Shown here: piece by piece, positions 3,851 to 26,690 of the stretch | Numbering within the stretch: position 1 is the stretch's first letter | How the letters are laid out: every line of letters starts with the position of its first letter | Assembly (NCBI GenBank): GCA_903851035.1 | Contig: CAINND010000093.1 | Span: 1-64,000, forward strand | Direction: 5' to 3' | Source: an uncultured Acidobacteriota bacterium | GTDB lineage: Bacteria > Acidobacteriota > Terriglobia > Terriglobales > Acidobacteriaceae | Length of the DNA stretch: 64,000 bases | The notes under the pieces: model-generated | What the model was told of the DNA's origin: nothing | What the model saw: the letters and a program-made list of their open reading frames with translations, nothing else | Databases searched by the model: none | Program-made: the position numbers and the translations under genes

Positions 3851-5374
3851 TTATGGGTGCTCATGGCGTTCCCCTGAACCCACGGCCATCGCGGAGGAGA
3901 ACCTGCTGCCAGCATTGGAGGCGGGTTCTTCGTCTAGCATACGGCGCGCGCCCCTGGCAGGAATCGCCGGGGGTGCTGCCTTTTCCCGTGGACTGATGAT
4001 ACCGTACTGGCGCGATTTGTAAATAAGCGCCTTATAACAAATTCCCAACATCGCTGCCGCGTCCTTGCGTCTCCACTGCGTTTTATCCAGTGCCGCGCGG
4101 ATGGCTTCCGCCTCCGCCTCGCCCTTCATCTCACGCACAATCTGCTTCAAATCGGTCGCGGAATCCGTCTTGCGGCGGCGCATTCCGCCCGGCTTGCGTG
4201 CCTCGCCGGCTGCCACCGGCGACGCAGGCAAGCTTTCTTCGCCCAGAACCAGGTAACGTTTCACTACGTTGTGCAGCTCGCGCAGATTTCCCGGCCATGT
4301 GTGCGCCATCAGCGACTGGCGCATCGCCATACTCAGCGGACGCTCCGGCTGGTGCAGCGCAACCGCCATATGCTTCATAAAGTTACGGAAGAGCGGCACA
4401 ATCTCCTCGCGGCGCTCACGCAGCGGAGGCAGGCACAAACTGAAGCCATTCAGCCGGTAGTACAGATCCAGCCGCAAGCGGCCCTGCTCCACCGCCAGCT
4501 TCACATCCACGTTCGTCGCCGCCAGAATGCGCACATCCACCTGCACCGGGCTCTTGCCGCCAAGCCGGAAGAAGCTCTGTTCCTGCAATACCTGCAACAA
4601 CTTAGCCTGCAAACGCGGAGGCATTTCGCCAATCTCGTCCAGCAGAATCGTGCCCTTGTCGCACTGCTCAAAGTAGCCCGGCTTGGCCGTGCTGGCGCCC
4701 GTAAAAGCTCCCGCCTCGTAGCCAAACAGCTCGCTCTCCAGCAGCTCCTCGGGGATGGCCGCACAGTTGATCTTCAAAAAGCGGCGCTTCGAGCGCGGCG
4801 AGTGAGTGTGCAACAGTTGAGCAATAATCTCCTTACCTGTTCCACTTTCGCCGGTAATCAGCACCGGCATGTCCACCCGCGCAATGCGCAATACCTGCTC
4901 GTACAGCTTCTTCATCGCCGGTGCCGCGGCCAGGAAGAACTTCTCCCCGCCCAGCTCCTCGCAAAGGATGTCACTTACTTCTTCCGTCTCGTCCGCCTCG
5001 GGTGCAACCTCAATCACTCCGGCGTAGCGCCGCACGGCTTCCAGCAAACGCTCTTCATCCACGGGCTTGGCCAGATAGTCGGCGGCGCCCAGCTTCATGG
5101 CCTGCACAATGCCGGCCGGGTCGTGCTGGCCGCTCAGCATCACAACGTGGGCCTCGGCGGCAATCGTGCGAATCTGGCTCAGGGTCTCCAGGCCGTCCAT
5201 GCCGGGCATCACCATGTCCAGCAGAACCATGGCGGGCTGTGGAGTGGCCTTCATCTCGCGCAATGCCTCCTGCCCATTGGCCGCCGTGCGCACACTGTAA
5301 CCTTCGCTTTGCAGCAGGCTGCGCACGTAGCGCAGCATCATCGGATCGTCGTCCACCACCAGTAGATGTGTCAT
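3851..5374 (-). CDS. Sigma54-dependent response regulator (NtrC type, PrsR-like)
   Basis: The 507-residue protein has three domains. The receiver carries acidic D8-D10 and phospho-acceptor D53 (LLDMVMPGMDG). The AAA+ domain has the Walker A GESGTGKE and a canonical sigma54-contact loop GAFTGA at residues 222-227. A Fis-type helix-turn-helix lies near the C-terminus (DAAAMLGICYKALIYK). It should be phosphorylated by the kinase encoded just upstream and then drive open-complex formation by sigma54 polymerase. The start overlaps the kinase stop in an ATGA. In known exosortase loci a kinase/regulator pair (PrsK/PrsR) controls PEP-CTERM genes with RpoN, so the same role is likely here. A longer upstream reading frame exists but lacks receiver-like sequence. 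Confidence 0.9.
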   Translation of the reverse strand: MTHLLVVDDDPMMLRYVRSLLQSEGYSVRTAANGQEALREMKATPQPAMVLLDMVMPGMDGLETLSQIRTIAAEAHVVMLSGQHDPAGIVQAMKLGAADYLAKPVDEERLLEAVRRYAGVIEVAPEADETEEVSDILCEELGGEKFFLAAAPAMKKLYEQVLRIARVDMPVLITGESGTGKEIIAQLLHTHSPRSKRRFLKINCAAIPEELLESELFGYEAGAFTGASTAKPGYFEQCDKGTILLDEIGEMPPRLQAKLLQVLQEQSFFRLGGKSPVQVDVRILAATNVDVKLAVEQGRLRLDLYYRLNGFSLCLPPLRERREEIVPLFRNFMKHMAVALHQPERPLSMAMRQSLMAHTWPGNLRELHNVVKRYLVLGEESLPASPVAAGEARKPGGMRRRKTDSATDLKQIVREMKGEAEAEAIRAALDKTQWRRKDAAAMLGICYKALIYKSRQYGIISPREKAAPPAIPARGARRMLDEEPASNAGSRFSSAMAVGSGERHEHP

Positions 5375-6213
5375 GCCGGCTGCTCCTCTTTCGCGCCAGG
5401 TCCGCGCATGGCAAACTCCGCCTCCGGCAAAGGAGGCACAAAGGGCAGGCGGAAGTGGAAGCTGCTGCCCACGCCCGGCTCGCTCTCTGCCCAAATCTTT
5501 CCCGAGTGCGCGCGCACAATGCGCTGCGCAATGGCCAGTCCCAGTCCGCAGCCCGGCATCTGTCCCGGCGCCGGAGTGGTGTAATACGCCTCAAAGACGC
5601 GCTCCAGATTCTCCCTGGCTATGCCGCAGCCGCTGTCCGTGATGGTTACCTGCGCGCAGTTCGGCGTGTGCGCCTTGGTGTCGCGGCCATCAAAGGCGGC
5701 GCGGAAGCGTGAACTGCGCCGCTCCCAGAACTCCGGGCTCAGCGTCAACTTCACCCGCCCGCCGCGCGGAGTGAAGTGCCGCGCGTTCTCCAGCAGGTTG
5801 ATCAGCACCTGGCGCACCATCGCCTGGTCAAAGGGCAGTATCAGCGGAGAAGCGCACACATCCAGTTCGAACTCCAGCCCCTGCTCGGCGAACTCACCGC
5901 GCAGCAGGGAAAAGGTGTCCAGGACGCACTTTCTCAGATCGGCCTTCTGGGTCACCGGCATGCACTCCTCAGTAACCTTGGCTTGCGGGCCCAGCAGGCG
6001 CGCAATCTTATCTTCCATCTGGTGGCAGGCCATCACGACGTCAGCCAGTGCTCCGGCCTGTTCTTCCGTCAGCGGCCCCAGTTTCCCCGCCCGCAGCAGC
6101 TTCGCCTGGCCGGCAATCACCGCCAGCGAACCCTTCAAGTCGTGGATCGCCATGGCAATACCCGTGGCTTTCCAGTTCTGCTGTTGAGCGAGTTGTGAGA
6201 TCAATGTGGACAT
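5371..6213 (-). CDS. Cytoplasmic sensor histidine kinase (PrsK-like partner)
   Basis: The 280-residue kinase has no membrane segment. A short N-terminal region leads into the H-box AIHDLKGSL (His about 24 residues in). The HATPase domain has the N-box LINLLENARHFTPRGG, G1 box DSGCGI and G2 box GCGLGLAIAQRI. It should autophosphorylate and pass phosphate to the regulator whose start codon overlaps its stop. The start is uncertain: ATG at 6213 gives the compact form, ATG at 6297 adds 28 residues, and neither has a clear Shine-Dalgarno. It diverges from the exopolysaccharide operon. The absence of a sensor domain suggests that a partner protein or a cytoplasmic cue provides the signal. Confidence 0.85.
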   Translation of the reverse strand: MSTLISQLAQQQNWKATGIAMAIHDLKGSLAVIAGQAKLLRAGKLGPLTEEQAGALADVVMACHQMEDKIARLLGPQAKVTEECMPVTQKADLRKCVLDTFSLLRGEFAEQGLEFELDVCASPLILPFDQAMVRQVLINLLENARHFTPRGGRVKLTLSPEFWERRSSRFRAAFDGRDTKAHTPNCAQVTITDSGCGIARENLERVFEAYYTTPAPGQMPGCGLGLAIAQRIVRAHSGKIWAESEPGVGSSFHFRLPFVPPLPEAEFAMRGPGAKEEQPA

Positions 6214-6326
6214 AGGGTTTACCCATTGGTACGAGAAGAAGTGGACTCTCTGCTGAAATTTCGTTTGATCCCATGATTTCAATGTGTTAGCTTCCATCCT
6301 ACAAAGGTGGAAGGGGCGTGGAGGAC

Positions 6327-6342
6327 TGGCACTCTGATTGCA
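6327..6342 (+). promoter_or_regulatory. Sigma54 (RpoN) promoter of the exopolysaccharide operon
   Basis: The element reads TGGCAC, five bases, TTGCA. It matches the -24/-12 consensus with the required ten bases between the GG and GC pairs. The predicted start of transcription is near 6353, only about five bases before the ATG at 6358, which has no Shine-Dalgarno. A dyad (CTTCCA at 6291-6296 and TGGAAG at 6308-6313) lies just upstream and could bind an activator. Two sigma54 activators are encoded on either side. Confidence 0.75.
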
Positions 6343-6357
6343 CATTCCCACCCTGCT

Positions 6358-7404
6358 ATGGCACAACGTGCTAAAAATTCGCCTCTGATTGAGCCCTTCG
6401 GCCTGCCCGAAAGCATTCTTTTCGGCCGGTCGCAGACCATGGCCGCCATCCGCCGCAACCTGCAGAAGGTGGCCGACACCAATATCCCCATCCTTATTGA
6501 GGGGGAGAGCGGCACGGGTAAGGAAGAAGTATGCAGGTTCGTGCACCATCAGTCGCCGTGGCATCACGGGCCGTTCGTCAAGGTGAACTGTCCGGCGATT
6601 CCGCCCGCGCTGGTGGAAAGCGAGCTGTTTGGCTATGAAAGGGACGCGTTTACAGGCGCTTCCCCTTCCGCGGCCGGGCGCGCTGCCGCGGGAACGCTCT
6701 TTTTAGATGAGATCAGCGAACTGGACATGGCGTTGCAGTCCAAACTGCTGCAAGTGTTGCAGGAGGGCCAGTTGCAGGCGGATGGGGAAGATGGGCACAA
6801 GGTGAATGTGCGCATCATCTGCTCCACGCACCGGAATCTGCGGCAGGAGGTGGCCACGGGTGGTTTTCGCCAGGACCTTTATTACCGTATCAGTGGGCTT
6901 GTGTTGCGGTTACCGCCCCTGCGCGAGCGGCTGGAGGATCTGGATGCCCTGGTCGAATACTTCATCGGGCTTTACAACGAGCGCTTTCACTGCCAGGCGC
7001 CGCCCGTGAGTTCTTCCACCATGGCGCGCATGGCGCTGCATAACTGGCCGGGAAACATCCGTGAGCTGGAGAACCTGGTGAAGCGCTATGTGGTTGTCGG
7101 CACGGAAGATGTCGTGCTTTCTGAGATTGGCGGCAGCACCTTGGGCGGCACGGCCCCCGAGGTGGATGCGGTGGAAGAAGGTTTGAGCCTGAGCGAGATG
7201 ACGCGCCAGGCTATGCGGTTGATGGAAAGTCGTATTATTTTGAACAGTTTGCGGCAGAATCAGTGGAATCGCCGCCGCACCGCGCGGGCGCTCAAGATCA
7301 GCTATCGCTCGCTGCTGTATAAGTTGAAGCGGTCGGGCGTTGCCGGCCGCCGCGAAAACGGATCCGCCGAGGCGGAGGGAAGGACGTTGGGAAACCAGTC
7401 ATGA
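6358..7404 (+). CDS. Sigma54 activator without receiver domain (PspF-like architecture)
   Basis: The 348-residue protein consists of an AAA+ domain (Walker A EGESGTGKE, about residue 45) and a C-terminal Fis-type helix-turn-helix (RRTARALKISYRSLLYKL). There is no N-terminal regulatory domain, so activity must be set by partners or by its own level. The sigma54-contact loop reads DAFTGA (residues 96-101) instead of GAFTGA, an unusual change in the first position. The start is the ATG at 6358, chosen because the conserved domain begins about 18 residues later; a GTG at 6307 would lie upstream of the sigma54 promoter. It is the first gene of the export operon and overlaps the next gene by ATGA, which suggests autoregulation. 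Confidence 0.8.
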   Translation: MAQRAKNSPLIEPFGLPESILFGRSQTMAAIRRNLQKVADTNIPILIEGESGTGKEEVCRFVHHQSPWHHGPFVKVNCPAIPPALVESELFGYERDAFTGASPSAAGRAAAGTLFLDEISELDMALQSKLLQVLQEGQLQADGEDGHKVNVRIICSTHRNLRQEVATGGFRQDLYYRISGLVLRLPPLRERLEDLDALVEYFIGLYNERFHCQAPPVSSSTMARMALHNWPGNIRELENLVKRYVVVGTEDVVLSEIGGSTLGGTAPEVDAVEEGLSLSEMTRQAMRLMESRIILNSLRQNQWNRRRTARALKISYRSLLYKLKRSGVAGRRENGSAEAEGRTLGNQS

Positions 7405-8231
7405 AAGCTGTCACGCGTTGCACACTTGTGGTTCTTGTCCTGATGCTGGCCGCGGCCCTGGCCATAGCGCAGTCCAATGCGAGCGCGCCGGCGGGGAATT
7501 ATGATGCCGCGCAACCTTTGCAACCGGCGCAGGCCGTGCCTGTCAGCAACCTGCCGCCGCCACCGGCGATGAACACTCCGGCGCAGACGGTGAAGCCGCA
7601 GCCCCTGCCGCCGCAGCCGGTGATTGTGGAGCGCGCCGCGCCGCAGCCGGAGACGGCTCAGCCGATGGCAGCGCAGGAGAAGGTTCCGCAGCCCGTTCGT
7701 CATCCCAATGCCCAGCAGCCCATGGCAGAGCGGGCTCCAGCGGCGGGTGAGAGCTACATTATTGGCGAGGGCGACGTGCTGGCCATCAACGTATGGCATG
7801 AGACGGAGCTGACTCGCACCCTGCCGGTGCGCATGGACGGCATGATTACCCTGCCGCTGATCGGCGACATGAAGGCCGCCGGGCAGACGGTGGATCAGTT
7901 GAGCGCGACCATCACCACCAAGCTGAAGCGCTACCTGGAGGCGCCGGAGGTCACGGTGATCGTGCAGGAGCCGCGCAGCCAGTTCTTTACCGTCATGGGG
8001 AAGGTGTTGAAGCCCGGCTCCTATCCGCTTGGGCAGCGGCTGTCGGTGATGGACGCGCTGGCCCTGGCCGGCGGCTTCAAGGACTTTGCCAAGGTCAACA
8101 AGATTCAGGTGGTGCGCACCCATCGCGATGGCCGCGTGGAGCGCATTCCCTTTGATTACAAGCGTGCCGTATCCGGTGACATTCAACACAACTTTCAACT
8201 CGAGCAGCACGATCTGATCGTGGTGCCGTAG
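7401..8231 (+). CDS. Polysaccharide export protein, OPX/Wza-like
   Basis: The 276-residue product has a signal peptide, a long Pro/Gln-rich spacer (about residues 25-115), then a poly-export domain starting at ESYIIGEGDVLAINVW and an SLBB domain (VMGKVLKPGSYPLGQRLSVMDALALAGG). Proteins of this family form the periplasmic and outer-membrane channel through which exopolysaccharide leaves the cell. There is no lipobox, and the usual C-terminal amphipathic helix of Wza is missing, so the outer-membrane pore may be supplied by the barrel protein encoded next. The gene overlaps the activator gene by four bases. Confidence 0.85.
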   Translation: MKAVTRCTLVVLVLMLAAALAIAQSNASAPAGNYDAAQPLQPAQAVPVSNLPPPPAMNTPAQTVKPQPLPPQPVIVERAAPQPETAQPMAAQEKVPQPVRHPNAQQPMAERAPAAGESYIIGEGDVLAINVWHETELTRTLPVRMDGMITLPLIGDMKAAGQTVDQLSATITTKLKRYLEAPEVTVIVQEPRSQFFTVMGKVLKPGSYPLGQRLSVMDALALAGGFKDFAKVNKIQVVRTHRDGRVERIPFDYKRAVSGDIQHNFQLEQHDLIVVP

Positions 8232-8282
8232 CTTTCGGCCCACGGGCCATGCATGGTTGCCTAGCGTTCAAGGAGTTTGGTC

Positions 8283-9632
8283 ATGAAGAAGATTCTGATG
8301 ATGAGCATGTTGCTGGTGCTGGGTCTTGCTGCCCCGGTCCTGGCGCAGGATTCGCAGGATGCCCCGAAGCCGGTGATTATGGATCCGACCGGCCCGGCAC
8401 ACCTGGGCAGCGAGGGGCCGTCCCTGACCCTGAGCAGCGACGTGCAGTCGCGCAACGTGCTGCTGGTGGGCTTCAGCGTGGGCGCGGCCTACGACACGAA
8501 GGGGCTGTATAACTCCACTACCGGCAGTTACAGCGGAGACACGCGCTATTTCTTCCAGCCGACGGTGGCCTTCCAGCGCACCTACACCACCGGCGCCTGG
8601 ACGTTGAGCTACACTCCCGGCGTCAGCTACAGCCAGAACGACACCAACAACAGCCAGTACACGCAGAACTTGAGCGGCGACTGGGTGTGGAAGCCCAACG
8701 GGCGGCTGATGCTGCACGTCCGCGAGGACTTCAGCCTGACCGACAATCCCTTTGAGAGCATTGGCCGCGTGGACCTGCTGCCGCCGCTGGGCGGACCCTC
8801 CGGCCCGGGCTACGACGGCGTGCTGCCGGACACAAAGCGCACCGGCTCGGTGAGCAACGTGGACCTGAGCTACCGGGTGGGCGAGCACAGCGCCGTGGGC
8901 CTGACCGCCGGCTATCAGTTGTACAACTACGACGCCACGACGAGCGCGACCACCGCCTTCCCGTATGTGGATTCGCATGTAGTGACCGGCTCGGCGTTCT
9001 TCTCGCACCAGTTCAACCGCGAGGTGACCCTGGGCGTGCAGATGAGCTACATGGACATTTACAGCACGGGCGCGGAGATTGCACGCACCCAGGCTCCGGC
9101 GCCGATGCTGTTCGCCAAAATCACGCCGGGCTTGCGCACGGAGATCACGCTGTACGGTGGCCCGGAGTACGCGCGCACGCGTGAGGTGATTGTGCTGGGC
9201 CCGATCACCCTGGCCAGCTACACGCACAAGTTGTATCCCACCTACGGCGGCACGGTGAGCTGGAGCGGCAACCGCCACGGCTGGGACGCGCAGGCACAAC
9301 AGCGCATCGCCAACGGCGGCGGCGTGCTGGAGGCGGTGAAGAACATCTCCGCCGGCGCCGGCTACCGCCTGCGCATGAGCCAGCGCTGGACGGCCGAGTT
9401 GCGCGCCAACTATGCCGATCAACAGGGCATCGGCGTGCTGAGCACGGGCACCTACTTCAAGAGCCTGTGGGTGGGCGGCGGACCGAATTATCAGATCACC
9501 AGCCGCTGGGCGCTGCGTGGACAGGTCGCCTATGTGCATCAGACGGAGTCCGGGCTGGGACCGGTGGCGGGCAACCATGTGCTGGTGCAGGGATCGCTGG
9601 AATACCGCCGTCGCAAGAATCTGGGAGAATAA
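8283..9632 (+). CDS. Outer-membrane beta-barrel protein of the exopolysaccharide locus
   Basis: The 449-residue protein has a signal peptide (MKKILMMSMLLVLGLAAPVLA) and then about twenty alternating aromatic-rich strands such as WTLSYTPGVSYSQN and YRLRMSQRWTAELRANYADQ, typical of an outer-membrane barrel. The position between the OPX protein and the co-polymerase matches the barrel gene of XrtA-type exopolysaccharide loci. It likely provides the outer-membrane exit pore. The ATG at 8283 is preceded by AAGGAG. The exact family was not identified. Confidence 0.7.
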   Translation: MKKILMMSMLLVLGLAAPVLAQDSQDAPKPVIMDPTGPAHLGSEGPSLTLSSDVQSRNVLLVGFSVGAAYDTKGLYNSTTGSYSGDTRYFFQPTVAFQRTYTTGAWTLSYTPGVSYSQNDTNNSQYTQNLSGDWVWKPNGRLMLHVREDFSLTDNPFESIGRVDLLPPLGGPSGPGYDGVLPDTKRTGSVSNVDLSYRVGEHSAVGLTAGYQLYNYDATTSATTAFPYVDSHVVTGSAFFSHQFNREVTLGVQMSYMDIYSTGAEIARTQAPAPMLFAKITPGLRTEITLYGGPEYARTREVIVLGPITLASYTHKLYPTYGGTVSWSGNRHGWDAQAQQRIANGGGVLEAVKNISAGAGYRLRMSQRWTAELRANYADQQGIGVLSTGTYFKSLWVGGGPNYQITSRWALRGQVAYVHQTESGLGPVAGNHVLVQGSLEYRRRKNLGE

Positions 9633-9637
9633 GAGTC

Positions 9638-11224
9638 ATGGCCGTGGACGATAATTCCGCGCAGGCACCCATCACGCCACACGACGCATGGGAGACCCTG
9701 GTGCGCCGTCGCTGGCTGGTGGGCGGCGGACTGTTTCTATGCTGGCTGATGGTGTGGTGCGGCAGCTGGCTGCTGCCCTCGGTCTATCGCTCGGAGACCG
9801 TGATCCTGATTGAGCAGCAGAAGGTGCCGGAGGAGTACGTCGTCGCCAACGTCAGCGTGGATTTGCAGCAGCGCCTGGAGGCGATGCGCCAGCAGATTCT
9901 GAGCCGCACCCGTCTGGAACGCATCATCAACCAGTTTGGCCTGTACAAGGAGGCCAACAAGACGAATCCCGACGAAGTGATCGAGCAGATGCGCAAGGAC
10001 ATCAAGACCGATCTGGTGGAGGCACCGGGCCGCCGCGGACAACTGTCGGCCTTCAAGATCAGCTATAGCGCGCCGTCGGCGCGGCTGGCGCAGCAGGTGA
10101 ACGCGCAGTTGACCTCGCTGTTCATCGACCAGAACATCGAAGAGCAGTCGCAGCGGGCCGAGGGTACGACCGAATTTCTGAGCAGCGAACTGCAATCGGC
10201 ACGCAACCACCTGAATGAGCAGGAAGACAAGATCAAGCAGTTCAAGGCGGGCAACCTGGGCTCACTGCCCAGCCAGATGGAGACCAACGTCCACATCCTG
10301 AGCGGGTTGCAGGAGCGCCAGCAGAGCCTGAGCCAGGCGCTGAACCGCGCCCAGGAGCAGCGGCTGTACTACGAGAGCCTGCTGACGCAATACCGCTCGG
10401 TGAGCAAGGAGCAGGAAAAGGGCGGCAACAGCCTTCCGGCGATTGACGAGCAACTCTCCAAGCTGAAGCAGGACCTGGCCGACGCGCAGGCCAAGTACAC
10501 GCCCGACCATCCGGACGTGCAGCGGCTGAAGCGGCTGATTGCGCGCACGGAAAAGCAGCGCGACGACATTCAGCGGCGGCTGGCCGAGGGCGGCAACGAC
10601 GCTCCGGCGCCGGTGCCGGCGCCGACGCATGACCCGCGCACCATGACTCCGATATTGCAGTTTGAGAGCCAGTTGAAGGCCAACCAGCAGGAGATCGCCG
10701 ACCTGAAGCGCGACCTGGCCCAGGTGGAGGCGCAGATTGGCGGCTACCAGGGACGGCTGAACAACATGCCGATCCGCGAGCAGCAACTGGCCGACCTGAT
10801 GCGCGACTACGACCAGTCCAAGGCAAACTACGACTCGCTGCTGAAGAAGCAGATGCAGTCGCAGTTGGCGACGAACCTGGAGAAACGGCAGCAGGGTGAG
10901 CAGTTCCGCATTATGGATGCGCCCAGCCTGCCGAAGAAGCCGATCTCGCCGGATAGATTGAAACTGAGCCTGATGGGGCTGGCCGGCGGGCTGTTGCTGG
11001 GCCTGGGCCTGGCCATTGTGGTGGAGGCCTTTGAAGACAAGGTGCGCACCGAGGAAGAGGTGACGCGCCTGGTGAAGGTTCGCATCCTGGCCGGCGTGCC
11101 GCACCTGTTTACGCCGCAGGAAGAGAGCAAGCGCAAGATCCGCCGCGTGATGGAGTGGTGCCTGGCGTCCGTGATGCTGCTGGTGATGGTCGCGGCCAAC
11201 GCCTACACCTCTTTGGGGAGATAG
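9638..11224 (+). CDS. Polysaccharide co-polymerase / chain-length determinant (Wzz/GumC family)
   Basis: The 528-residue inner-membrane protein has one transmembrane segment near residue 30 (RRWLVGGGLFLCWLMVWCG), a long periplasmic coiled coil rich in Gln, Glu, Lys and Ala (about residues 170-440), and a second membrane segment before a short cytoplasmic tail. The motif KPISPDRLKLSLMGLAGGLLLG near the second segment is the family proline-rich signature. It lacks the fused kinase; the tyrosine kinase is encoded separately at 12199. A second hydrophobic segment at the very C-terminus (CLASVMLLVMVAANAYTSL) is typical of the exosortase-associated subgroup. It sets polymer length together with the ligase/polymerase and kinase. 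Confidence 0.85.
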   Translation: MAVDDNSAQAPITPHDAWETLVRRRWLVGGGLFLCWLMVWCGSWLLPSVYRSETVILIEQQKVPEEYVVANVSVDLQQRLEAMRQQILSRTRLERIINQFGLYKEANKTNPDEVIEQMRKDIKTDLVEAPGRRGQLSAFKISYSAPSARLAQQVNAQLTSLFIDQNIEEQSQRAEGTTEFLSSELQSARNHLNEQEDKIKQFKAGNLGSLPSQMETNVHILSGLQERQQSLSQALNRAQEQRLYYESLLTQYRSVSKEQEKGGNSLPAIDEQLSKLKQDLADAQAKYTPDHPDVQRLKRLIARTEKQRDDIQRRLAEGGNDAPAPVPAPTHDPRTMTPILQFESQLKANQQEIADLKRDLAQVEAQIGGYQGRLNNMPIREQQLADLMRDYDQSKANYDSLLKKQMQSQLATNLEKRQQGEQFRIMDAPSLPKKPISPDRLKLSLMGLAGGLLLGLGLAIVVEAFEDKVRTEEEVTRLVKVRILAGVPHLFTPQEESKRKIRRVMEWCLASVMLLVMVAANAYTSLGR

Positions 11225-11230
11225 CTCGCA

Positions 11231-12202
11231 ATGTACGAGAAGTTTTACGGCTTCAATCAGAACCCGTTCCGCATGAGTCCCGACCCGGCGTTTTACTACG
11301 CCACGGCGCGGCACAATGAGGCGCTGGCCAACCTGACCTACGGCGTGCTCATGCAGAAGGGCTTCATCGTGCTGACCGGCGAAGTGGGCACGGGCAAGAC
11401 GCTGCTGGTGCGCTGCCTGCTGGACACGCTCTACCGCTCGCGCGTGGCGCACGCCTACATTTTGAATCCGCTGCTCTCCTCGGATGACCTGTTGCGCATG
11501 ATCCTCACCGACTTCGGAATCCGCGAGGTGAAGCGCACACGCGGCGAGATGCTGCAACAGTTCAACGAGCATCTCATCGAGGTGTACCGCCGCAACGGCA
11601 TCTGCGCCCTGGTGATTGACGAGGCGCACCTGCTGACCCCCGGACTGCTGGAAGAGATTCGGCTGATGACCAACATCGAGACCAGCAAGCACAAGCTGCT
11701 GCAAATTGTTTTGGTGGGCCAGCCCGAACTCGACGAGAACCTGGATTCGCCCGAACTGCGCCAGGTGAAGCAGCGCGTGGCCCTGCGCTATGCCCTGGAG
11801 CCGATGAACGACATGGAAGTGCGTGGCTACATCGACCGCCGCCTGGAAGTGGCCGGCGCGCCCAACCGTTTGCTGCAAATCTTCCCCGCGCCCACGCTGG
11901 CTCGCATTCTGCATTACGCGCACGGCATTCCGAGGCTTGTGAACACGCTATGCGACAGCGCGCTGGTCAGCGGTTACGGCAAGCAGTTGAAGAGCATTCC
12001 CCCGGCGATGATTGACGAGGTGGCCAACGACCTGCGCCTGAGCCTGAAGAACAGCGTGCAGCAGATGACGGGCACGCCATTCAACAACCGTCCCGGCGAG
12101 GACGAAATGAGCCGCAAGACGCTGGTGAAGACGCTGATGCGGCTGGCCAGGCTGCTGGAGCCCGGCGCCGACAACGATAAGAATCAAGGAGTGGCAGGAT
12201 GA
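11231..12202 (+). CDS. ExeA-like AAA+ ATPase of exosortase loci
   Basis: The 323-residue ATPase begins MYEKFYGFNQNPFRMSPDPAFYY-like, the hallmark of the ExeA/GspA group and of the subfamily found next to PEP-CTERM exopolysaccharide genes. It has Walker A TGEVGTGKT and Walker B ALVIDEAH. It probably remodels or assembles the export complex at the inner membrane. It overlaps the kinase gene start by four bases. There is no peptidoglycan-binding domain, unlike longer ExeA proteins. Confidence 0.85.
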   Translation: MYEKFYGFNQNPFRMSPDPAFYYATARHNEALANLTYGVLMQKGFIVLTGEVGTGKTLLVRCLLDTLYRSRVAHAYILNPLLSSDDLLRMILTDFGIREVKRTRGEMLQQFNEHLIEVYRRNGICALVIDEAHLLTPGLLEEIRLMTNIETSKHKLLQIVLVGQPELDENLDSPELRQVKQRVALRYALEPMNDMEVRGYIDRRLEVAGAPNRLLQIFPAPTLARILHYAHGIPRLVNTLCDSALVSGYGKQLKSIPPAMIDEVANDLRLSLKNSVQQMTGTPFNNRPGEDEMSRKTLVKTLMRLARLLEPGADNDKNQGVAG

Positions 12203-13287
12203 GCCGTATCTTCGACGCGCTTCGCCGGTCGGAAATGGACCGCAACCCGGGCGATGAAAACTCCGCCGGGCAGAATGCTTCCGCCACGCCAAAGCCGGTT
12301 TCGCCCACGGACGCCGCGCTGGATGCAGCTACTACGGCAGCCCAGTCAACGGCAGTGCCGCCGCCTGCGGTTGCAGCGGCCGCGCCGATTGTGCAGGCGG
12401 CTGCGCCCATGGACGAGAAACTGGCTGAGCTGATGCGCAAGGCGCGTGACGCCAAGGGGATGCCGGACTTTTCGCAGCTTCGCCCGACGATGACGCCGGA
12501 GCCGGAGCCCGAGACGGTGGCGGCTGCGGTGGAGGTGAAGCCTGCGACCCCCACGCTCGACCTGAGCAAGCTGAAGCGGATCAACGTAACGGCCGCGCCA
12601 TCGTCACGGCTGGTGGCGCTCATCAGCGAAAAGGCGCTGGGCGCGGAGAAGTTCCGCGTGCTGGGTGCGCGTCTCAGCAATATCCGCCTCAGCAGCAAGC
12701 TGAATATTTTGCAGGTGACCAGCAGCGTGGTGGGCGAGGGCAAAACCCTGACCAGTGTGAATCTGGCTATGACACTGGCCAAGCGCTTTGATCAGAAGGT
12801 GCTGCTGGCGGAAGGCGATCTGCGCAAGCCGGCCGTCTGCAAAATGCTCGGATTGCCCATGAAGCCCGGCATCGGCGAATGGTGGGATCACCCGGAGATT
12901 CCGGTGACCGATTACATCCTGCGCATTGGCGACACCGGCATGTGCCTGCTGCCCGCCGGCGACGTATCGCATCCGGCCAGCGTGCTGCAATCGCAGCGCA
13001 TCGCCGACCTCTTTCAGGAGCTGGCGCGGCAGTTCGACTGGGTCATCATCGACACGCCTCCGCTGCTGCCCATGGCAGACAGCAACCTGTGGTCGCGCAT
13101 CAGCGACGGAACATTGATGGTGGTGCGCAAGGGCGTGGTCACACGCTCGGCGCTGAAGAAGGCCGTGGAGAGCCTGGACAATCCCAAGATGGTGGGTGTG
13201 GTGCTGAACGACGCCAGCGATTACGACCGCGTGAATTACTACGATCAGTACTACACGCCGCGCGGCGACCGTCCGGCGGGAGCCTAG
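12199..13287 (+). CDS. Bacterial tyrosine autokinase (BY-kinase) of exopolysaccharide locus
   Basis: The 362-residue protein starts MSRIFDALRRSEM, as in exosortase-locus tyrosine autokinases, followed by an Ala/Pro-rich linker. The kinase domain has Walker A SSVVGEGKT, Walker A' VIIDTPPLLPMAD, and a tyrosine-rich tail (YDRVNYYDQYYTPRG) that is the autophosphorylation cluster. It controls polymer length by cycling between phosphorylated and dephosphorylated states with the co-polymerase encoded two genes upstream. No cognate tyrosine phosphatase gene was seen in the window. Confidence 0.9.
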   Translation: MSRIFDALRRSEMDRNPGDENSAGQNASATPKPVSPTDAALDAATTAAQSTAVPPPAVAAAAPIVQAAAPMDEKLAELMRKARDAKGMPDFSQLRPTMTPEPEPETVAAAVEVKPATPTLDLSKLKRINVTAAPSSRLVALISEKALGAEKFRVLGARLSNIRLSSKLNILQVTSSVVGEGKTLTSVNLAMTLAKRFDQKVLLAEGDLRKPAVCKMLGLPMKPGIGEWWDHPEIPVTDYILRIGDTGMCLLPAGDVSHPASVLQSQRIADLFQELARQFDWVIIDTPPLLPMADSNLWSRISDGTLMVVRKGVVTRSALKKAVESLDNPKMVGVVLNDASDYDRVNYYDQYYTPRGDRPAGA

Positions 13288-13293
13288 ACCCCG

Positions 13294-14661
13294 GTGACTC
13301 GCCGCTCTCATGTGTACATCCCGGTGCGGGCCATAGCTCTTGGCCTGGCGGAGGCCATCATGGCCGCGCTGGCGCTGGTGATGGCCATGGTGCTTTACCT
13401 GGGGCCCATCAACGCCACGCTGGCCCTGGGTTACGAGCAGGCCGACGTGCGCGTGGCGCTCATCGTATTCATCTTTGTGCTGTGCATGTACTACTGCGAC
13501 CTGTATGACCTGAGCGTGCTGCGCAATCCGCGCGAGGTGGTCACCAACCTCATCCAGTGCTTCGGTTCGTTCTTCGTGGTGCTGGGCTGCATCTACAGCA
13601 TGTTTCCCGTGGCGCGGCTGGAGATGTGGGTGGTGCTGGGCGGCTCCGGCCTGGCGGCCTTTGGCGCGCTGATGTGGCGCGGACTCTTCCGCTATGCCGC
13701 GCACTGGCCCGCCTTCCAGGAGCCGCTGGTCACCTTCGGCGAAGGCCCGGTTATCTCGCAAATCGCCAACCTTGTGTCGAGCCAGCCGGAACTGGGCTTC
13801 CGCCTCGTCGGCCAGGTAAATGAACTGCACGAGGAAGGCGAGGGAATGATTCCCGCCACCGAGCTGCGCCGCCTGGTGGACGAATATCATGTGCAGCGCG
13901 TGGTGGTGGCCATGGGCGAGCGCCGCGGCCGCCTGCCGGTGGATATGCTGCTGGACCTGAAGGAAGAAGGCGTGACCGTGCAGGAGGGCAGTGAACTGTA
14001 CGAGAACATCACCGGCAAGGTCTATCTGGATTCACTGCGCCCGAGCATGCTGCTGTTTTCGCCGGCCTTTGAGGTCAGCACGTTTTCGCTGCTGGGCCAG
14101 CGAATCATGGCCATCGTGGTAAGCCTGGCGCTGATAGCGGTCACCCTGCCCATCATGCTGCTGGTGGCCGTGGCCATCAAGCTCGATTCTCGCGGGCCGG
14201 TGGTCTTCCGGCAAAAGCGCGTGGGCCTGCGTGGAAAGCTCTTCACGTTATACAAATTCCGCACCATGCGCGAGGGCAGCGATGGCGTGCGCCCCGCGTC
14301 GGAAAAAGACGAGCGCTTTACCCGCTTCGGTAGCTGGCTGCGCTCCACGCGACTGGACGAGTTGCCGCAGCTTTGGAACATCCTGAAGGGCGACATACAA
14401 CTGGTGGGGCCGCGTCCCTTTGTGCCGGAGCAGGAGCAGGAGCTGGTGGAGTCCATACCGTTCTACAAGCTGCGCTGGAGCGTGCGGCCCGGCGTTACGG
14501 GCTGGGCGCAGATTAATCGCGGCTACTGCTCGACGCTTGAGGACAACCAGGAAAAGCTCGCCTACGATCTTTTCTACATCAAACATTTCTCGCTCGGGCT
14601 GGACCTGCTGGTCATCTTCAAGACCGCCAAGACGCTGCTGCTGGGCCGGGGGGCGCGATGA
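13294..14661 (+). CDS. Initiating undecaprenyl-phosphate sugar phosphotransferase (EpsB-type)
   Basis: The 455-residue protein has an N-terminal block of membrane helices, a CoA-binding-like central region and a C-terminal bacterial sugar transferase domain. The latter has the diagnostic segments RQKRVGLRGKLFTLYKFRTM, LRSTRLDELPQLWNILKGD, LVGPRP and RPGVTGWAQIN. It links the first sugar phosphate to undecaprenyl phosphate on the cytoplasmic face, starting the repeat unit. Architecture and neighbours match the PEP-CTERM-associated subfamily. The start is a GTG seven bases after the kinase stop. Confidence 0.9.
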   Translation: MTRRSHVYIPVRAIALGLAEAIMAALALVMAMVLYLGPINATLALGYEQADVRVALIVFIFVLCMYYCDLYDLSVLRNPREVVTNLIQCFGSFFVVLGCIYSMFPVARLEMWVVLGGSGLAAFGALMWRGLFRYAAHWPAFQEPLVTFGEGPVISQIANLVSSQPELGFRLVGQVNELHEEGEGMIPATELRRLVDEYHVQRVVVAMGERRGRLPVDMLLDLKEEGVTVQEGSELYENITGKVYLDSLRPSMLLFSPAFEVSTFSLLGQRIMAIVVSLALIAVTLPIMLLVAVAIKLDSRGPVVFRQKRVGLRGKLFTLYKFRTMREGSDGVRPASEKDERFTRFGSWLRSTRLDELPQLWNILKGDIQLVGPRPFVPEQEQELVESIPFYKLRWSVRPGVTGWAQINRGYCSTLEDNQEKLAYDLFYIKHFSLGLDLLVIFKTAKTLLLGRGAR

Positions 14662-15836
14662 TTACGCTGATTGCGCAGATCGCCTTTTGGACGGCCGTGG
14701 CGCTGGTGCTGTACGCCCACTTCGGCTACCCGCTGGTGCTCTTTGTCTGCTACGGGTTGGTGCAGATGCGGCGCGACTGGGCCTTTCTGCAGCTTCGCGT
14801 AGACCGCCGCCGCGGCGAGTTGACGGATGCCGAACTGCCCACAGTCACCCTGTTGTTTGCCGCCTACAACGAGGAAGAGCACTTGGCGGAGAAGATCGCG
14901 AACACCATCGAGCTCGACTACCCGGCGGAAAAGCTGCAAGTGGTGATCGTCAGCGACGGGTCGAGCGACCGCACCAACGAAATACTTTCGCGCGTGACCG
15001 ATCCGCGCTTTGAGATCGTCATCCGCAGCGAGCGCAGCGGCAAATGCGCGGCCCTGGCCGTGGCCGTGGAGCGCGCCCGCAACAGCATCTTCGTGCTCAG
15101 CGATGGCAGCACGATGTTTGCCACGGACGCCTTGCGTAAGCTGGTGCGCCACTTTCAGTCGCCGCAGGTGGGCGCCGTCTGCGGCGCACTCAGCTTCCAC
15201 TGCAACGAGGAGAGCAGCCAGACTGAAGGCCTTTACTGGAAATACGAGACGGCTCTGCGCCTGATGGAAGCGCGCCTTGGCGCCACGCTGACGCCGAGCG
15301 GAGCCATCTACGCCGTGCGCGGCACGGCCTACACGCCGCCCAGTCCGGACGTGCTGGTGGATGACATTCTGACGCTGATGGAAGTGCGCCGCCAGGGCTT
15401 CCAGGTGCACTACGATCCCGAGGCCAAGGCCGTGGACTATCCCGCCTCGAGCGTGGCCGGTGAGTTCCATCGCCGCGTGCGCCTTGGCACAGGCAGCTTT
15501 CGCGCCCTGCCGGAGCTGATGCGCGTGCCCAAGCCGGGCTTTACGGGCTTTGCCTTCTTCAGCCACAAACTGCTGCGCTGGGTGCTGCCCGTTCTGCTGC
15601 TGGTGATCTTTATCAGCAATCTCTTCCTGTTGGGCAGCGTTTTTTATCGCGTCACCTTTGCGCTGCAACTGCTGCTGCTGCTGTGGGCGGCCGTGGGCTG
15701 GGCCTTCCGCGGACTGCTGGTGCGCGTGCGCTTTGCGCTCGTCGGATATTTTCTGGTCGCCATGAACGTGGCGCTCTTCATAGGAATGCTGCGCGGCATT
15801 CTGGGCAGGGAGGCGGCATGGCAGCGCGGCAGCTAG
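14658..15836 (+). CDS. Membrane glycosyltransferase, GT2 family
   Basis: The 392-residue protein has an N-terminal membrane helix, a GT2 catalytic domain (VTLLFAAYNEEEHLAEKI, then VVIVSDGSSDRTNEIL) and a later DD acidic pair (DVLVDDILTLMEV), and three or four C-terminal membrane helices. This is the layout of polysaccharide synthase-like transferases such as IcaA/HasA relatives. It adds a sugar to the lipid-linked unit. It overlaps the preceding gene by ATGA and the next by about 19 bases. Confidence 0.85.
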   Translation: MITLIAQIAFWTAVALVLYAHFGYPLVLFVCYGLVQMRRDWAFLQLRVDRRRGELTDAELPTVTLLFAAYNEEEHLAEKIANTIELDYPAEKLQVVIVSDGSSDRTNEILSRVTDPRFEIVIRSERSGKCAALAVAVERARNSIFVLSDGSTMFATDALRKLVRHFQSPQVGAVCGALSFHCNEESSQTEGLYWKYETALRLMEARLGATLTPSGAIYAVRGTAYTPPSPDVLVDDILTLMEVRRQGFQVHYDPEAKAVDYPASSVAGEFHRRVRLGTGSFRALPELMRVPKPGFTGFAFFSHKLLRWVLPVLLLVIFISNLFLLGSVFYRVTFALQLLLLLWAAVGWAFRGLLVRVRFALVGYFLVAMNVALFIGMLRGILGREAAWQRGS

Positions 15837-16612
15837 ATCATCCGCGGCCCGCCCTGAGCGGCGTCCCGGTCTTCATGTATCACGACCTGTGCGAGGGCGC
15901 GGCCAGCGACCGTTACACGGCCAGCCTGCCGCAACTGACCATGCACCTGGGCTTTCTGCGCGAGGCGCGATTCACCGTCTGCAGCCTGGAAGAAGCACTG
16001 CGGCCACTGCCGCACGGCACGCGCCGCGCCGTGCTGACCTTTGACGACGGCCTCGTCCGCCAGTGCGACATTGGGCTGCGCGTGCTGGTGGAGCATGGCT
16101 TCTCCGCTACATTCTTCGTTACCACATCGCTCATTGACACGCCGGGCTACATGACCTGGAACCAGTTGCGCGGCATGCGCACGGCCGGCATGACCATCGG
16201 CTCGCACGGGCATCATCACGCGGATCACACCGCGATGAGCGCGAAGCAGGTGGAAGAAGAGTTGCGCCGCTCGCGTGGGATTTTGGAAGAGAAGCTGGTC
16301 GCGCCGGTGAATGCCTTTTCCGCGCCCTTTGGCTTTGTGAATCGCTCGGTGGCCGCCGTGGCGAGGCAGGTGGGCTTCCAGCATGTGTGCAGTTCGCTGC
16401 CGTGGCCGGTGCAGCCGGGCATGACGATGATTCCGCGCATTGTGGTTTACAAAAACACCACGCGCGAAGATTTTGCCGGACTCGCCTGCGGCAGCGCATG
16501 GCCATTGATGGCCCGCCGCGCGCGCCACTCCGCTCTGCATGTGCCCAAGTTTGTGCTGCGCCGCTTCTGGCCCGCCAAGTTCGGCGTGGGCCCCATTCCG
16601 GAGGAGCAATGA
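15818..16612 (+). CDS. Polysaccharide deacetylase (NodB homology, CE4)
   Basis: The 264-residue protein carries the CE4 motif 1 TFDDG and motif 2 SHGHHH, the metal-binding His pair, and an Arg/Pro-containing C-terminal motif. No signal peptide is evident, so it would act in the cytoplasm or at the membrane on lipid-linked intermediates unless the start is misassigned. It likely removes N-acetyl groups from the exopolysaccharide. The ATG at 15818 lies inside the end of the previous gene; the longer upstream frame reads as nonsense. Confidence 0.85.
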   Translation: MAARQLDHPRPALSGVPVFMYHDLCEGAASDRYTASLPQLTMHLGFLREARFTVCSLEEALRPLPHGTRRAVLTFDDGLVRQCDIGLRVLVEHGFSATFFVTTSLIDTPGYMTWNQLRGMRTAGMTIGSHGHHHADHTAMSAKQVEEELRRSRGILEEKLVAPVNAFSAPFGFVNRSVAAVARQVGFQHVCSSLPWPVQPGMTMIPRIVVYKNTTREDFAGLACGSAWPLMARRARHSALHVPKFVLRRFWPAKFGVGPIPEEQ

Positions 16613-17754
16613 GCCGCGTAAATGTATTCGTGCTGATTGATGCCCTCGGCTGGGAGCTGGTTAGCCAGCGGCCATTCCTTGCAAAGTTTCTGCCGCATCA
16701 GCAGGAGGTGCGCACGCTGCTGGGTTACAGCTCGGGGATCATTCCGTCCATCCTCACCGGGCAGACCCCGGCGGAGAACGGCGTGTGGAACCTCGTTTAC
16801 TACGATCCCGCGCGCTCGCCCTTCCGCCACATGAAGCACTTTGGAACGCTGCCCGGCCGCATGCTGGACAATCGTTATGGCCGCCGCGCGCTCACTGAGC
16901 TGGGCCGCCGCGTGCTGGGCCTGGGCTCGAACTTCGATGTCAGCGTGCCGCCGCAAACCCTGCCGTGGTTCCACTGGGCAGAGAGCCGCAACATTTACGC
17001 GCGGCAGGGAATCCCCGGCTGCCGCAGCATCTTTGACCTGCTGCATGAGCGCGGCGTGGGCCACAAGATTTATTCCTACAAGGACCCGCTCACCGACGCG
17101 GAGATTCTGGCGCGCGCCGAGGCCGACATCACCAGCGCAACCGGCGAGTTCTTCTTCCTCTACCTCTCCGAGCTGGACATGTTCCTGCACCTGAACCGGC
17201 ACGACCCGGAGAAGATCGCCCTCAAGCTGGAGTGGTATGAGCGCGAGTTGGGCAAGGTCTTTGCCGCCGCCACGGCGCGCGATCCCGAAGCCGGGCTGCA
17301 CGTCTTCAGTGATCACGGCATGACGCCCGTTGTGCGGCACTGCGATCTGGCCGCCGAGGTGGAGTCCACCGGCCTGCGCACGCCGGCGGATTACCTGGCC
17401 GTTTACGACTCCACGATGGCGCGCTTCTGGTTCTTCAGCGACGCGGCACGGGAGAAGGTGACCGCGCGGCTCAAGGGCCTGGACTACATACAAATTTTGA
17501 GCGACGACGAACTGCGCGAATTCGGCGTGTACTTTGAGGATCATCGCTACGGCGAAGTGGTTGCGCTGCTGGCGCCCGGCTGCATCGTCGCCGAAGGCGG
17601 CTTCAACGGTAGTGGATGGCGGCCCGCGGGCATGCACGGCTATCACCCGGACGATCCCTACGCAAGCGCCGTGTATCTCTCCAGCGCCGTGCCGCAGAGC
17701 AAGCCAAAGACCGTGCGCGAGATTTTCTTCATCATGCAGGAGGCCGCACGATGA
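16609..17754 (+). CDS. Alkaline-phosphatase-superfamily phosphodiesterase
   Basis: The 381-residue protein belongs to the type I phosphodiesterase/nucleotide pyrophosphatase group. It has an N-terminal metal-binding Asp (VFVLIDALGWE), a GYSSGIIPSILTG segment carrying the expected nucleophile, and C-terminal metal ligands in SDHGM and MHGYHPD. It may release or transfer phospho-groups such as phosphoethanolamine on the polymer. No signal peptide is visible. It sits between the deacetylase and a glycosyltransferase with ATGA overlaps on both sides, so a role in polymer modification is likely but the substrate is unknown. Confidence 0.75.
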   Translation: MSRVNVFVLIDALGWELVSQRPFLAKFLPHQQEVRTLLGYSSGIIPSILTGQTPAENGVWNLVYYDPARSPFRHMKHFGTLPGRMLDNRYGRRALTELGRRVLGLGSNFDVSVPPQTLPWFHWAESRNIYARQGIPGCRSIFDLLHERGVGHKIYSYKDPLTDAEILARAEADITSATGEFFFLYLSELDMFLHLNRHDPEKIALKLEWYERELGKVFAAATARDPEAGLHVFSDHGMTPVVRHCDLAAEVESTGLRTPADYLAVYDSTMARFWFFSDAAREKVTARLKGLDYIQILSDDELREFGVYFEDHRYGEVVALLAPGCIVAEGGFNGSGWRPAGMHGYHPDDPYASAVYLSSAVPQSKPKTVREIFFIMQEAAR

Positions 17755-18917
17755 GCGCTCCGTTGACGGTCTGCATGTTTGATAACGAGCGCGTGCGCGG
17801 CGGCGCCGAGGAGCACATGCTCTGCCTGCTGAAGGGGCTAGATCGTGCGCGCTTTCGTCCCATGCTGGTGTGCCCGGCGGAGTTGCTGGCACAGCTTGTC
17901 GCGGAACTGCCCAAAGACGTGACGACCTTTGCGCTCGAACTGCACTCGCATCGCCAGGTTGGCCTGATGCACGAGCTTGCGGGCTTTCTGCGCCGCCAGA
18001 AGGTGCAGGTGCTGCACTCGCACGGCTTCCGTCCCAGCCTGCTGGCTTCTCCCGTGGGGCGCTGGGCGGGCGTGGCGGCCAACGTGGAAACTCCGCATGT
18101 GCGTGAATACTGGCGCAAGGGCTGGAAGGCCGACTATCGCATCGATCGCTTTGCCGGACGCTTTGTGGATGCCTACATCGCCGTCAGCGAGGCCAATGGC
18201 CGCTACCTGCGCGAGGAGAAGCAACTTCCCACGCTCAAGATAAAGGTCATCCGCAACGGCAGCGATCTCTCGCGCTTTGTGCCATCGCCGGGAGTTTCCG
18301 CCGAGGCTGCGTCAATGCGTGTTGCGGCGGGTTTTGGCGAGCAGGATAAAGTTTTGTTTCTGGCCGCGCGGCTGGAGCCGCAAAAGGGCCACGCCGTGCT
18401 GCTGCGCGCCATGGCCGCCTTGCGTGAGGAGTTTCCCACCTTGCGGCTGATGGCGCTTGGTGAAGGCACTCTGCGCGGTGAACTGGAAAAGCTTACGGCC
18501 GAGCTTGGCTTGGAAGGCCACGTGAAGCTGCCGGGACACTCGCCGGATGTGGAGCGCTGGATGGCCGCCGCCGATTTGTGCGTGCTGCCCTCGTTTGCCG
18601 AAGGCCTGCCGCTCTTCGCCATCGAATGTTTGGCCATGCAGCGTCCCATGGTTGCCACCGCCGTGGATGGCACGCCGGAGATTGTGGTGGATGGCCGCAC
18701 CGGGCTGACCGTGCCTCCGGGAGATGTAGCGGCCCTGGCCGCAGCCATCGGACGGCTGCTGCGCGATCCCGCACTGGCCGCGCAACTGGCGGCCAACGGT
18801 GCCGAGTGGGTGCGCAAGCACTTCACCTTGGAGCGGCAGATACGCGAGACGGAGAATTTGTACGAAGCGCTGTACCGCGTGCGCAAGCAGCGCGGCGCAG
18901 CCCGGGAAAAAGTTTGA
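17751..18917 (+). CDS. Glycosyltransferase, GT4 family
   Basis: The 388-residue protein has the GT-B fold. The N-terminal glycine loop reads NERVRGGAEEHM; the C-terminal nucleotide-sugar domain has FLAARLEPQKGH and the catalytic EX7E element ending in SFAEGLPLFAIE. The segment ATAVDGTPEIVVDGRTG is characteristic of GT4 enzymes. It is a retaining transferase acting on the cytoplasmic face. It overlaps the preceding gene by four bases; the sugar donor is unknown. Confidence 0.88.
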   Translation: MSAPLTVCMFDNERVRGGAEEHMLCLLKGLDRARFRPMLVCPAELLAQLVAELPKDVTTFALELHSHRQVGLMHELAGFLRRQKVQVLHSHGFRPSLLASPVGRWAGVAANVETPHVREYWRKGWKADYRIDRFAGRFVDAYIAVSEANGRYLREEKQLPTLKIKVIRNGSDLSRFVPSPGVSAEAASMRVAAGFGEQDKVLFLAARLEPQKGHAVLLRAMAALREEFPTLRLMALGEGTLRGELEKLTAELGLEGHVKLPGHSPDVERWMAAADLCVLPSFAEGLPLFAIECLAMQRPMVATAVDGTPEIVVDGRTGLTVPPGDVAALAAAIGRLLRDPALAAQLAANGAEWVRKHFTLERQIRETENLYEALYRVRKQRGAAREKV

Positions 18918-18957
18918 TGCGGCAGCGGCAACGCGCTGCTGTCTGTAAGGGGAGAGT

Positions 18958-20148
18958 ATGACGGAGACCGATCACGTCCAAACCACACCACCGGAGCTGG
19001 CTTTTCCGGTGGCAGAGGCGATGGTGCGCGCCTGCCGCGACACCTTTGGTCCCACGCTGCGTGCCGTGGTGCTTACCGGCAGCCTGGCTCGCAACGAGGG
19101 CAGCTACCTGGTGCGCGATGGGCGCCGTGAGTTGCAGAGCGACGTGGAGGCCATGGTGGTGCTGCACGATGGCGCGGCCTTGCCCTCGCGGCACTCCAGC
19201 CGCGCTCTGTGCCGTTTGGCGCAAAGCCATCTGGCCGACCGCGGCATCAACGTGGAGGTCAGCTTCAGCGTGGTGCATGCGAATTATCTTCGCGAGCTGC
19301 CGCCGCACATTTACAGTTACGAGCTGCGCGCCTGCGGCGTGGTGCTCTTTGGCGAGGCCGACATCCTTGGCCTGATTCCGGATTTTTCCGCCGCCGAGCT
19401 CAGTCACGAAGATGCCTGGCGCATGCTGGCCAACCGCCTGATCGAACAGATGGAATCCGCCGGCGACGGCTCGCTGCAGTTGGGCGGAATGCGCTACCGC
19501 AGCATCAAGCTCTGCCTGGATGTGGCTTCGGCCATGCTGGTCTTCAGCGGACGCTTTGAAGCGGGCTACCGCGCCCGGCTTGTGCGCATGGAAGAATTCG
19601 CCCTCACGCCGGAGGCTCGCAATCTGCCCGTCGACATGGTTGAGTTCATGCCCGTTCTGCGCCAGTGCGTGGCGCTCAAGCTGGAGCCGGAGCGCGCCAA
19701 TGAACTGGGTTCCGGCTTTGAGGGACAGGTGACGAGCTGGGCCTGGAAGGCATGGCTGTGGCAGTTGCAGCGCATGGCCCCCGTCACGGCCGAGGAGAGC
19801 GTGGAATTGATGGTGCGCGCCTTTGGCCGCTCGCAGGGCATCAAACGATTGCTGCGCGGATGGCTCTATGCGGTGCGCCGCACCGGCTGGTTGGCTTCCG
19901 CCCTGTACTGGCCCAAGTGGACGATCACGGCCATGAAAGGTTTGACGCCGCGCCACGCGATCTATCTTTCCGCCTATCGCTGGCACATGGCGTGCTCGGC
20001 GCAGACGGCTGCCGAGTTGCCCGCCTGCATGGATGGCGTGCGCGAACTGCTGCCCATCGCGGGCAATCCCGCGCCGCATGAGGCCGCGGCGCTGGCGGCG
20101 CAACTGGTGTGGAACTACAAGGAATTTACGACGGAGACGCGCGCCTAG
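18958..20148 (+). CDS. Nucleotidyltransferase-fold protein of the exopolysaccharide operon
   Basis: The 396-residue product begins with a polymerase-beta type nucleotidyltransferase core: LTGSLARNEGS (residues 39-49), then SDVEAMVVL with the acidic pair D62 and E64, and a third possible acidic position in INVEVSF. The remainder is helical with no recognised domain. Such proteins move a nucleotide to a small molecule, protein or sugar. It follows GGGGAG closely and belongs to the export operon. This type of gene is not a standard exopolysaccharide component, so its substrate is an open question. Confidence 0.6.
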   Translation: MTETDHVQTTPPELAFPVAEAMVRACRDTFGPTLRAVVLTGSLARNEGSYLVRDGRRELQSDVEAMVVLHDGAALPSRHSSRALCRLAQSHLADRGINVEVSFSVVHANYLRELPPHIYSYELRACGVVLFGEADILGLIPDFSAAELSHEDAWRMLANRLIEQMESAGDGSLQLGGMRYRSIKLCLDVASAMLVFSGRFEAGYRARLVRMEEFALTPEARNLPVDMVEFMPVLRQCVALKLEPERANELGSGFEGQVTSWAWKAWLWQLQRMAPVTAEESVELMVRAFGRSQGIKRLLRGWLYAVRRTGWLASALYWPKWTITAMKGLTPRHAIYLSAYRWHMACSAQTAAELPACMDGVRELLPIAGNPAPHEAAALAAQLVWNYKEFTTETRA

Positions 20149-20190
20149 CTTACTGCCGGGTGCGGTCCAACGCAGAATGAGGTGACGATA

Positions 20191-21168: not shown

Positions 21169-21207
21169 ATTGCATCTGGCGCTTCCAACTGAATGGCGAG
21201 GTGAGCG

Positions 21208-23801: not shown

Positions 23802-23811
23802 TCGCCGTGCC

Positions 23812-26674: not shown

Positions 26675-26690
26675 TGGCAAACTGTTCGCT
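26675..26690 (+). promoter_or_regulatory. Candidate sigma54 promoter at the exosortase gene
   Basis: The sequence TGGCAA, five bases, TCGCT keeps the invariant GG and GC pairs ten bases apart and shares CTG in the spacer with the strong element at 6327. By the usual rule transcription would start near 26701, that is, at or just inside the assigned ATG (26698). Either the true start codon is further in or the match is chance. Confidence 0.35.

Follow-up and report, generated by a model that had tools for sequence, protein, structure and literature searches.

Organization of the locus

The stretch of DNA that we analysed, 64,000 nucleotides in length, from a soil bacterium and termed the window below, carries a run of genes of about 19 kb on a single strand (6358–25407, +), as the initial annotation of this DNA had stated. 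The product of the first gene (6358–7404, +) belongs to the sigma54-activator family and lacks a receiver. Profile searches and the sequence itself point to an AAA+ domain, a lid and a Fis-type helix-turn-helix (HTH): PF00158 (187.6 bits) and PF02954 (31.4 bits) both score above their cut-offs, and no receiver domain was found. The nearest named relatives of the gene are found in metagenome-assembled genomes of Acidobacteriota (Terriglobia, Acidobacteriaceae, Sulfotelmatobacter). PspF is a receiver-less sigma54 activator, and the first gene product resembles it in the AAA+ domain near the N-terminus, the C-terminal Fis-type HTH and the lack of a receiver. It differs from PspF in its score with the corresponding model (219.5 bits, below the cut-off of 443.55), in its position at the head of a presumed exopolysaccharide (EPS) operon and in its GAFTGA motif, which reads DAFTGA. 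GAFTGA is the loop with which activators touch sigma54.

The genes behind the first one (7401–25407, +) belong, by family, to an export protein, a chain-length determinant, an ATPase, a tyrosine autokinase, a sugar transferase, glycosyltransferases, and ligase-like and flippase-like proteins, and would form a single operon with it. Families of XrtA/PEP-CTERM systems exceed their cut-offs for the chain-length determinant (TIGR03007, 283.8 bits; cut-off 278.85), the sugar transferase (TIGR03025, 348.9 bits; cut-off 295.55) and the exosortase (TIGR02602, 188.3 bits; cut-off 105.55), and several other XrtA models match at the locus below cut-off. By these predicted families, the locus in the window is an XrtA/PEP-CTERM exopolysaccharide locus. 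Moreover, a predicted secreted protein encoded at 30743–31453 has, by eye, a PEP-CTERM-like tail (APEPASIALIGSGLLAIGGFVKRRMRK) and is a likely substrate of the exosortase.

Two divergent genes lie upstream of the first gene, a histidine kinase (5371–6213, −; HATPase_c) and an NtrC-type response regulator (3851–5494, −), whose domains and sequence, including an intact GAFTGA, make it a candidate activator. Since its GAFTGA is intact and that of the first gene is altered, we infer that the regulator is at present the better candidate of the two. With the PrsR model TIGR02915 the regulator scores 347.5 bits and the first gene product 245.9 bits, both below the cut-off of 502.6, which sets the regulator apart from PrsR proper. 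A homologous divergent kinase is found upstream of the first gene in 64 of the 78 orthologous loci described below; 144 bases separate kinase and first gene in the window, compared to about 850 in many relatives. Within the stretches examined, the export gene comes next in 19 of the 78 loci and other genes do so elsewhere, for instance a gene for a PEP-CTERM protein (L077) or for a chain-length determinant (L048), as judged by eye. Kinase and export gene are both absent from the stretches examined at L045, L047, L048 and L057.

A sigma54-type element abuts the start codon of the first gene

The intergenic region contains the sigma54-type −24/−12 element TGGCACTCTGATTGCA (6327–6342, +). The initial annotation had reported TGGCAC-N5-TTGCA at this place; it is an exact match, and the only one in the window with zero mismatches. 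GG and GC are present at −24 and −12 with ten bases between them. The gap between TTGCA and the ATG at 6358 measures 15 bases, the distance from the T of TGG to the ATG being 31. In the usual −24/−12 register of sigma54 promoters the position of the element sets that of the transcription start (+1), which is thus predicted at about 6353, five bases 5' of the ATG. The predicted leader, CTGCT (6353–6357, +), contains no Shine-Dalgarno sequence (SD), and none is found just 5' of it ahead of this ATG. The closeness of element and start, the predicted leader of about five bases and the lack of an SD had all been noted before and hold up. In having an ATG start without an upstream SD, the first gene looks like other leaderless genes, its predicted leader being five bases long. 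For the first 60 bases, the predicted RNA structure is ordinary (z 0.05). Finally, the genome encodes RpoN (TIGR02395, 398.4 bits; cut-off 277.35).

How readily would such an element arise by chance? The genome (3.26 Mb in 121 contigs) contains five exact matches on both strands, one of them in the window, and about 1e-4 exact matches are expected in the 144-base gap at 6214–6357. The score of the element was reached or exceeded in two of 20 random 64-kb windows generated by a Markov model, so that by score alone it is unexceptional for 64 kb; its weight comes from its position and conservation. A coincidental −24/−12 match would fit with these two random windows and with the other four exact matches in the genome, three of which look intragenic by eye. 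In view of the low expectation in the gap itself and of the fact that orthologues keep the element (see below), we regard a coincidence as very improbable. The fourth of the other matches lies 40 bases before an ATG on contig 94 (L004), and is a second intergenic-looking exact sigma54 element in this genome.

Counts of element-like patterns across genomes say less. The pattern TGGCNYN6TGCW near an ATG was found 129 times in the genome of the window and its backward version 23 times, and most of the matches look intragenic, which makes the comparison uninformative. In seven genomes, a pattern search returned 48 matches with a gap of 10–18 bases and 31 with a gap of 24–32 bases. When 30 loci of each set were read, nine of 32 start-codon readings in the abutting set passed a crude rule, compared to eight of 35 in the wider set. 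This spacing count is mildly in favour of an abutting class and weak on its own; its value lies in the individual genes it brought up.

Conservation of the element and of its spacing

We assembled orthologues of the first gene from 87 places, of which 81 are distinct and 78 have a usable anchor; L053, L058 and L061 were dropped. Further orthologue matches, such as L059, L060, L111, L115 and the distant L122–L130, were left out of the set. The upstream regions were scored with an approximate matrix for sigma54 elements. A sigma54-like element scoring at least 7 is found in 57 of the 78 orthologues and one scoring at least 10 in 36, compared to 8.6% and 1.8% of base-shuffled regions. The best string has the form GG-N10-GC in 76 of the 78, and the shuffles are the proper control because the matrix itself favours GG-N10-GC.

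Spacing was counted from the T of TGG to the in-frame ATG or GTG that comes first downstream of the predicted +1. It is mostly 49–70 in the orthologues, which corresponds to a longer leader in most of them. Element and start abut, with a spacing of 31, in the window, in L032 (of the same genus) and in L048. Other abutting copies have spacings of 27 or 30 (L045, L047), 32 (L051, L052), 34 (L057) and 33 (L177/L208), and their predicted leaders are mostly 5–8 bases long. In a 50-row protein tree, with ten of 15 added loci placed, the abutting copies form four supported groups, implying at least four changes of spacing; owing to long branches, some placements in this tree are uncertain, and the grouping of L039 with L031 (the window) and L032 is flagged. 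In seven more loci (L043, L054, L055, L067, L077, L114 and L118), an in-frame ATG or GTG occurs at 28–34; these were left uncounted, since either a later start looks conserved or the element is poor.

The comparison with L032 also bears on where translation begins. An in-frame GTG at 6307 lies upstream of the ATG at 6358, and use of it would place the element inside the gene; another in-frame ATG follows at 6439. The corresponding ATG of L032 has no in-frame start ahead of it, owing to a stop codon. The ATG at 6439 has no SD and falls in FG-x-S-x-x-M, a conserved stretch at the start of the AAA+ domain; relatives whose upstream starts are clear have this codon too. We therefore consider a start at either of these codons improbable.

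The sigma54-contacting loop of the first gene product, given as G[AS][FY]TGA, is kept in 72 of 77 orthologue rows. Among the other five, DAFTGA occurs in the window only, the loop is deleted in L032, lost in L039 and L057 and masked in L121. GAFTGA is kept in L208, the sister of L057, and in the abutting copies L045, L047, L048, L051 and L052. In the clade of the window, the first gene product may no longer activate sigma54 and could modulate its own operon.

Dyads upstream of the element and the exosortase gene

The initial annotation had pointed out a dyad, CTTCCA-N11-TGGAAG (6291–6313), just upstream of the element and not at the distance usual for an enhancer. The dyad exists, and is probably incidental: four 6-base inverted repeats, this one included, occur in the 144 bases and, by eye, it is absent in L032. 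A different dyad, TGAAAANNTTTTCC, is enhancer-like in the relatives. In 51 of the 78 loci it scores at least 10 of 12, compared to 1.4% of shuffles; its centre lies exactly 143 bases before the element in 30 of the 78 and 141–145 bases before it in 43, or, counted from the +1 predicted for the first-gene orthologue (L033–L121), about 169 bases upstream. Because the kinase starts about 850 bases away in many relatives, this dyad belongs with the promoter of the first gene. L032 has GGAAAGTACTTTCC at 134. In the window, where the gap is 144 bases in all, the best match to the TGAAAANNTTTTCC dyad is seven of 12, which is the chance level. The palindrome GGAAANNNNTTTCC occurs at six places in the genome of the window, and in the five that were scanned no convincing sigma54 element was found within 330 bases (best score 9.9).

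A combined pattern of dyad and element was found in 23 of 200 genomes, once in each, and the backward pattern was absent among the matches listed. By coordinates, 18 of the 23 precede a first-gene orthologue. The other five precede a gene for a PEP-CTERM protein in three genomes and for an export-like protein in one (both by eye), and a UDP-GlcNAc 2-epimerase gene (Pfam) in the fifth. The latter is a second EPS gene in a relative that has both the enhancer-like dyad and the element, its start lying 30 bases from the element. In L081, L097, L100, L102–L105 and L118, a conserved block, GTAAGTTGCTTTTC-TCAATCA-GATAG, was seen by eye between dyad and element; it might represent a bend or a second binding site.

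The exosortase gene had been proposed as a second case of the same layout. The nearest sigma54-like string, TGGCAAACTGTTCGCT (26675–26690, +), is weak: its score is 11.8, and a window would by chance contain about 13 sites that score above 11. Its predicted +1 at about 26701 falls after the in-frame ATG at 26698. We rejected it as a promoter of this gene, and the parallel does not stand.

The flagellar gene flgF shows two spacing classes

The pattern search in seven relatives also brought up flgF, with a spacing of 27–28. We sampled 50 loci, one of which (L330) belongs to another family of the class, and 80 stretches, working down a list in which 157 of 249 genomes had matches. Our script failed to place six of these, and 124 genes remained for analysis. 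Two of the six were read separately: L313 has a spacing of 39 with an SD and L325 a spacing of 40 without one. The element was defined as [TC]GG-N9-TGC[AT] and the SD as GGAG, GAGG or AGGA. The distance of the element from the start is 27–29 in 41 genes, 30–35 in only one and 36–60 in 74, and in eight it is absent from this range.

The two classes differ in their translation signals. An SD is present in none of the 41 abutting genes, compared to 69 of the 74 with the wider spacing (Fisher 5e-26, ignoring relatedness). All 41 abutting genes start with ATG, compared to 50 of the 74 at 36–60, the remaining 24 having GTG or TTG (Fisher 6e-6, ignoring relatedness). Initiation at a 5'-terminal AUG predicts just this combination: ATG as the only start codon, and loss of the SD, in precisely those genes whose promoter abuts the start. 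Although a single genus code accounts for 29 of the 41 abutting genes, the class is distributed over nine, and both forms occur within four of these (g1, g9, g38 and g52). The SD-bearing leaders are themselves short, as in L321, where the leader is ten bases and the SD begins at the second; predicted leaders of abutting flgF genes are 1–3 bases, compared to the 5–8 in most abutting first-gene copies. The flgF of the window's own genome has the SD form, with a spacing of 37. To judge from these sequences, the pattern looks like a switch between leaderless sigma54 transcripts and those with a minimal SD-bearing leader.

These data bear on a further explanation for the first gene, in which the sigma54 promoter works and most of the translated message comes from another promoter further upstream, so that initiation would occur without an SD on a leadered transcript. 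The 144-base gap has room for such a promoter. An SD was found in 15 of 52 or 26 of 82 sampled genes of the genome, and leadered genes without an SD may therefore exist. We consider this explanation rather unlikely, since it leaves unexplained both the spacing of 27–34 in four clades and the fact that SD and spacing switch together in flgF.

A model for sigma54 transcripts that begin at or near the start codon

It is likely, in our judgement, that the element at 6327–6342 is a promoter which drives the first gene, and presumably the EPS run behind it, from a start about five bases from the ATG, in a layout that recurs in the order. That such a promoter heads the EPS operon and that the first gene is almost leaderless is supported by the conservation of the element, its spacing in the same genus and in three other clades, the presence of rpoN and the geometry of flgF; a possible enhancer role of the local dyad and the exosortase parallel are not supported. 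RpoN would recognize the element, and sigma54 RNA polymerase, driven by an activator, would start about 0–5 bases from the AUG. Ribosomes can bind directly to a 5'-terminal AUG. With a transcription start about five bases before the ATG at 6358, translation would begin in this manner, at a (nearly) 5'-terminal AUG and not via an SD. More generally, sigma54 promoters of the order would either abut the AUG without an SD or leave a short SD-bearing leader. We find it plausible, and on balance lean towards the idea, that activator-dependent leaderless genes form a regular class in this order, comprising regulator, EPS and flagellar genes, with repeated switching between leader and no leader and with gated transcription coupled to 5'-AUG translation. 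The repetition of the layout in relatives, both for the first gene and for the flagellar gene, suggests that such messages are genuinely made in this way, which has attracted little notice.

Conventional leaderless genes probably occur in the genome of the window as well: among 56 sampled genes without an SD, TANNNT begins 12–15 bases before the ATG in eight instances, compared to 0–2 at each other distance. According to the available text of PMC3160421, leaderless genes are predicted for 9.7–19.4% of the genes in three Acidobacteria genomes. As described there, ordinary bacterial leaderless genes share with the present ones a promoter that abuts the start, an ATG start and the lack of an SD; they differ in having sigma70-type −10 boxes, situated about 12 bases upstream of the start codon, the only promoters detectable by that approach, whereas the present genes have a sigma54 promoter, which depends on an activator. 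In the freely accessible text that we consulted, mainly from surveys of start sites, we found no description of a sigma54-leaderless class; the leaderless genes described there go with −10 boxes, with other factors or without any named promoter. For Leptospira, the available part of PMC5243855 reports many transcription starts within 0–10 bases and three sigma54 sites; should some of these coincide, they may be precedents.

The sigma54-controlled PEP-CTERM genes with PrsK/PrsR in Proteobacteria (PMC1569441; PMC9850573), as far as the accessible text describes them, are similar to the present locus in the element and a nearby kinase-regulator pair; the dyad of the relatives would correspond to their upstream activator site. 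Their activator-site motif ends in TTTACA, compared to TGAAAANNTTTTCC in the relatives of the window. In the available text of PMC1569441, which concerns Proteobacteria only, the distance from the end of the motif to the start codon averages 71 bases, with 23 as the minimum, compared to 15 in the window.

Leaderless genes are usually recognized by sigma70-type −10 boxes beside the ATG, and a sigma54 counterpart would escape such scans. If the class is real, it bears on the calling of start codons, and it would join tightly gated transcription to SD-independent translation. In the flgF set, leaderless orthologues can be compared directly with matched leadered ones, some of them in one genus. 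Finally, more candidate genes with a start-abutting sigma54 element were noticed in relatives (L265, L268, L269 and L275); they encode a pilin-like protein (by eye), an HlyD-type adaptor, a proton-antiporter subunit and a secreted protein.
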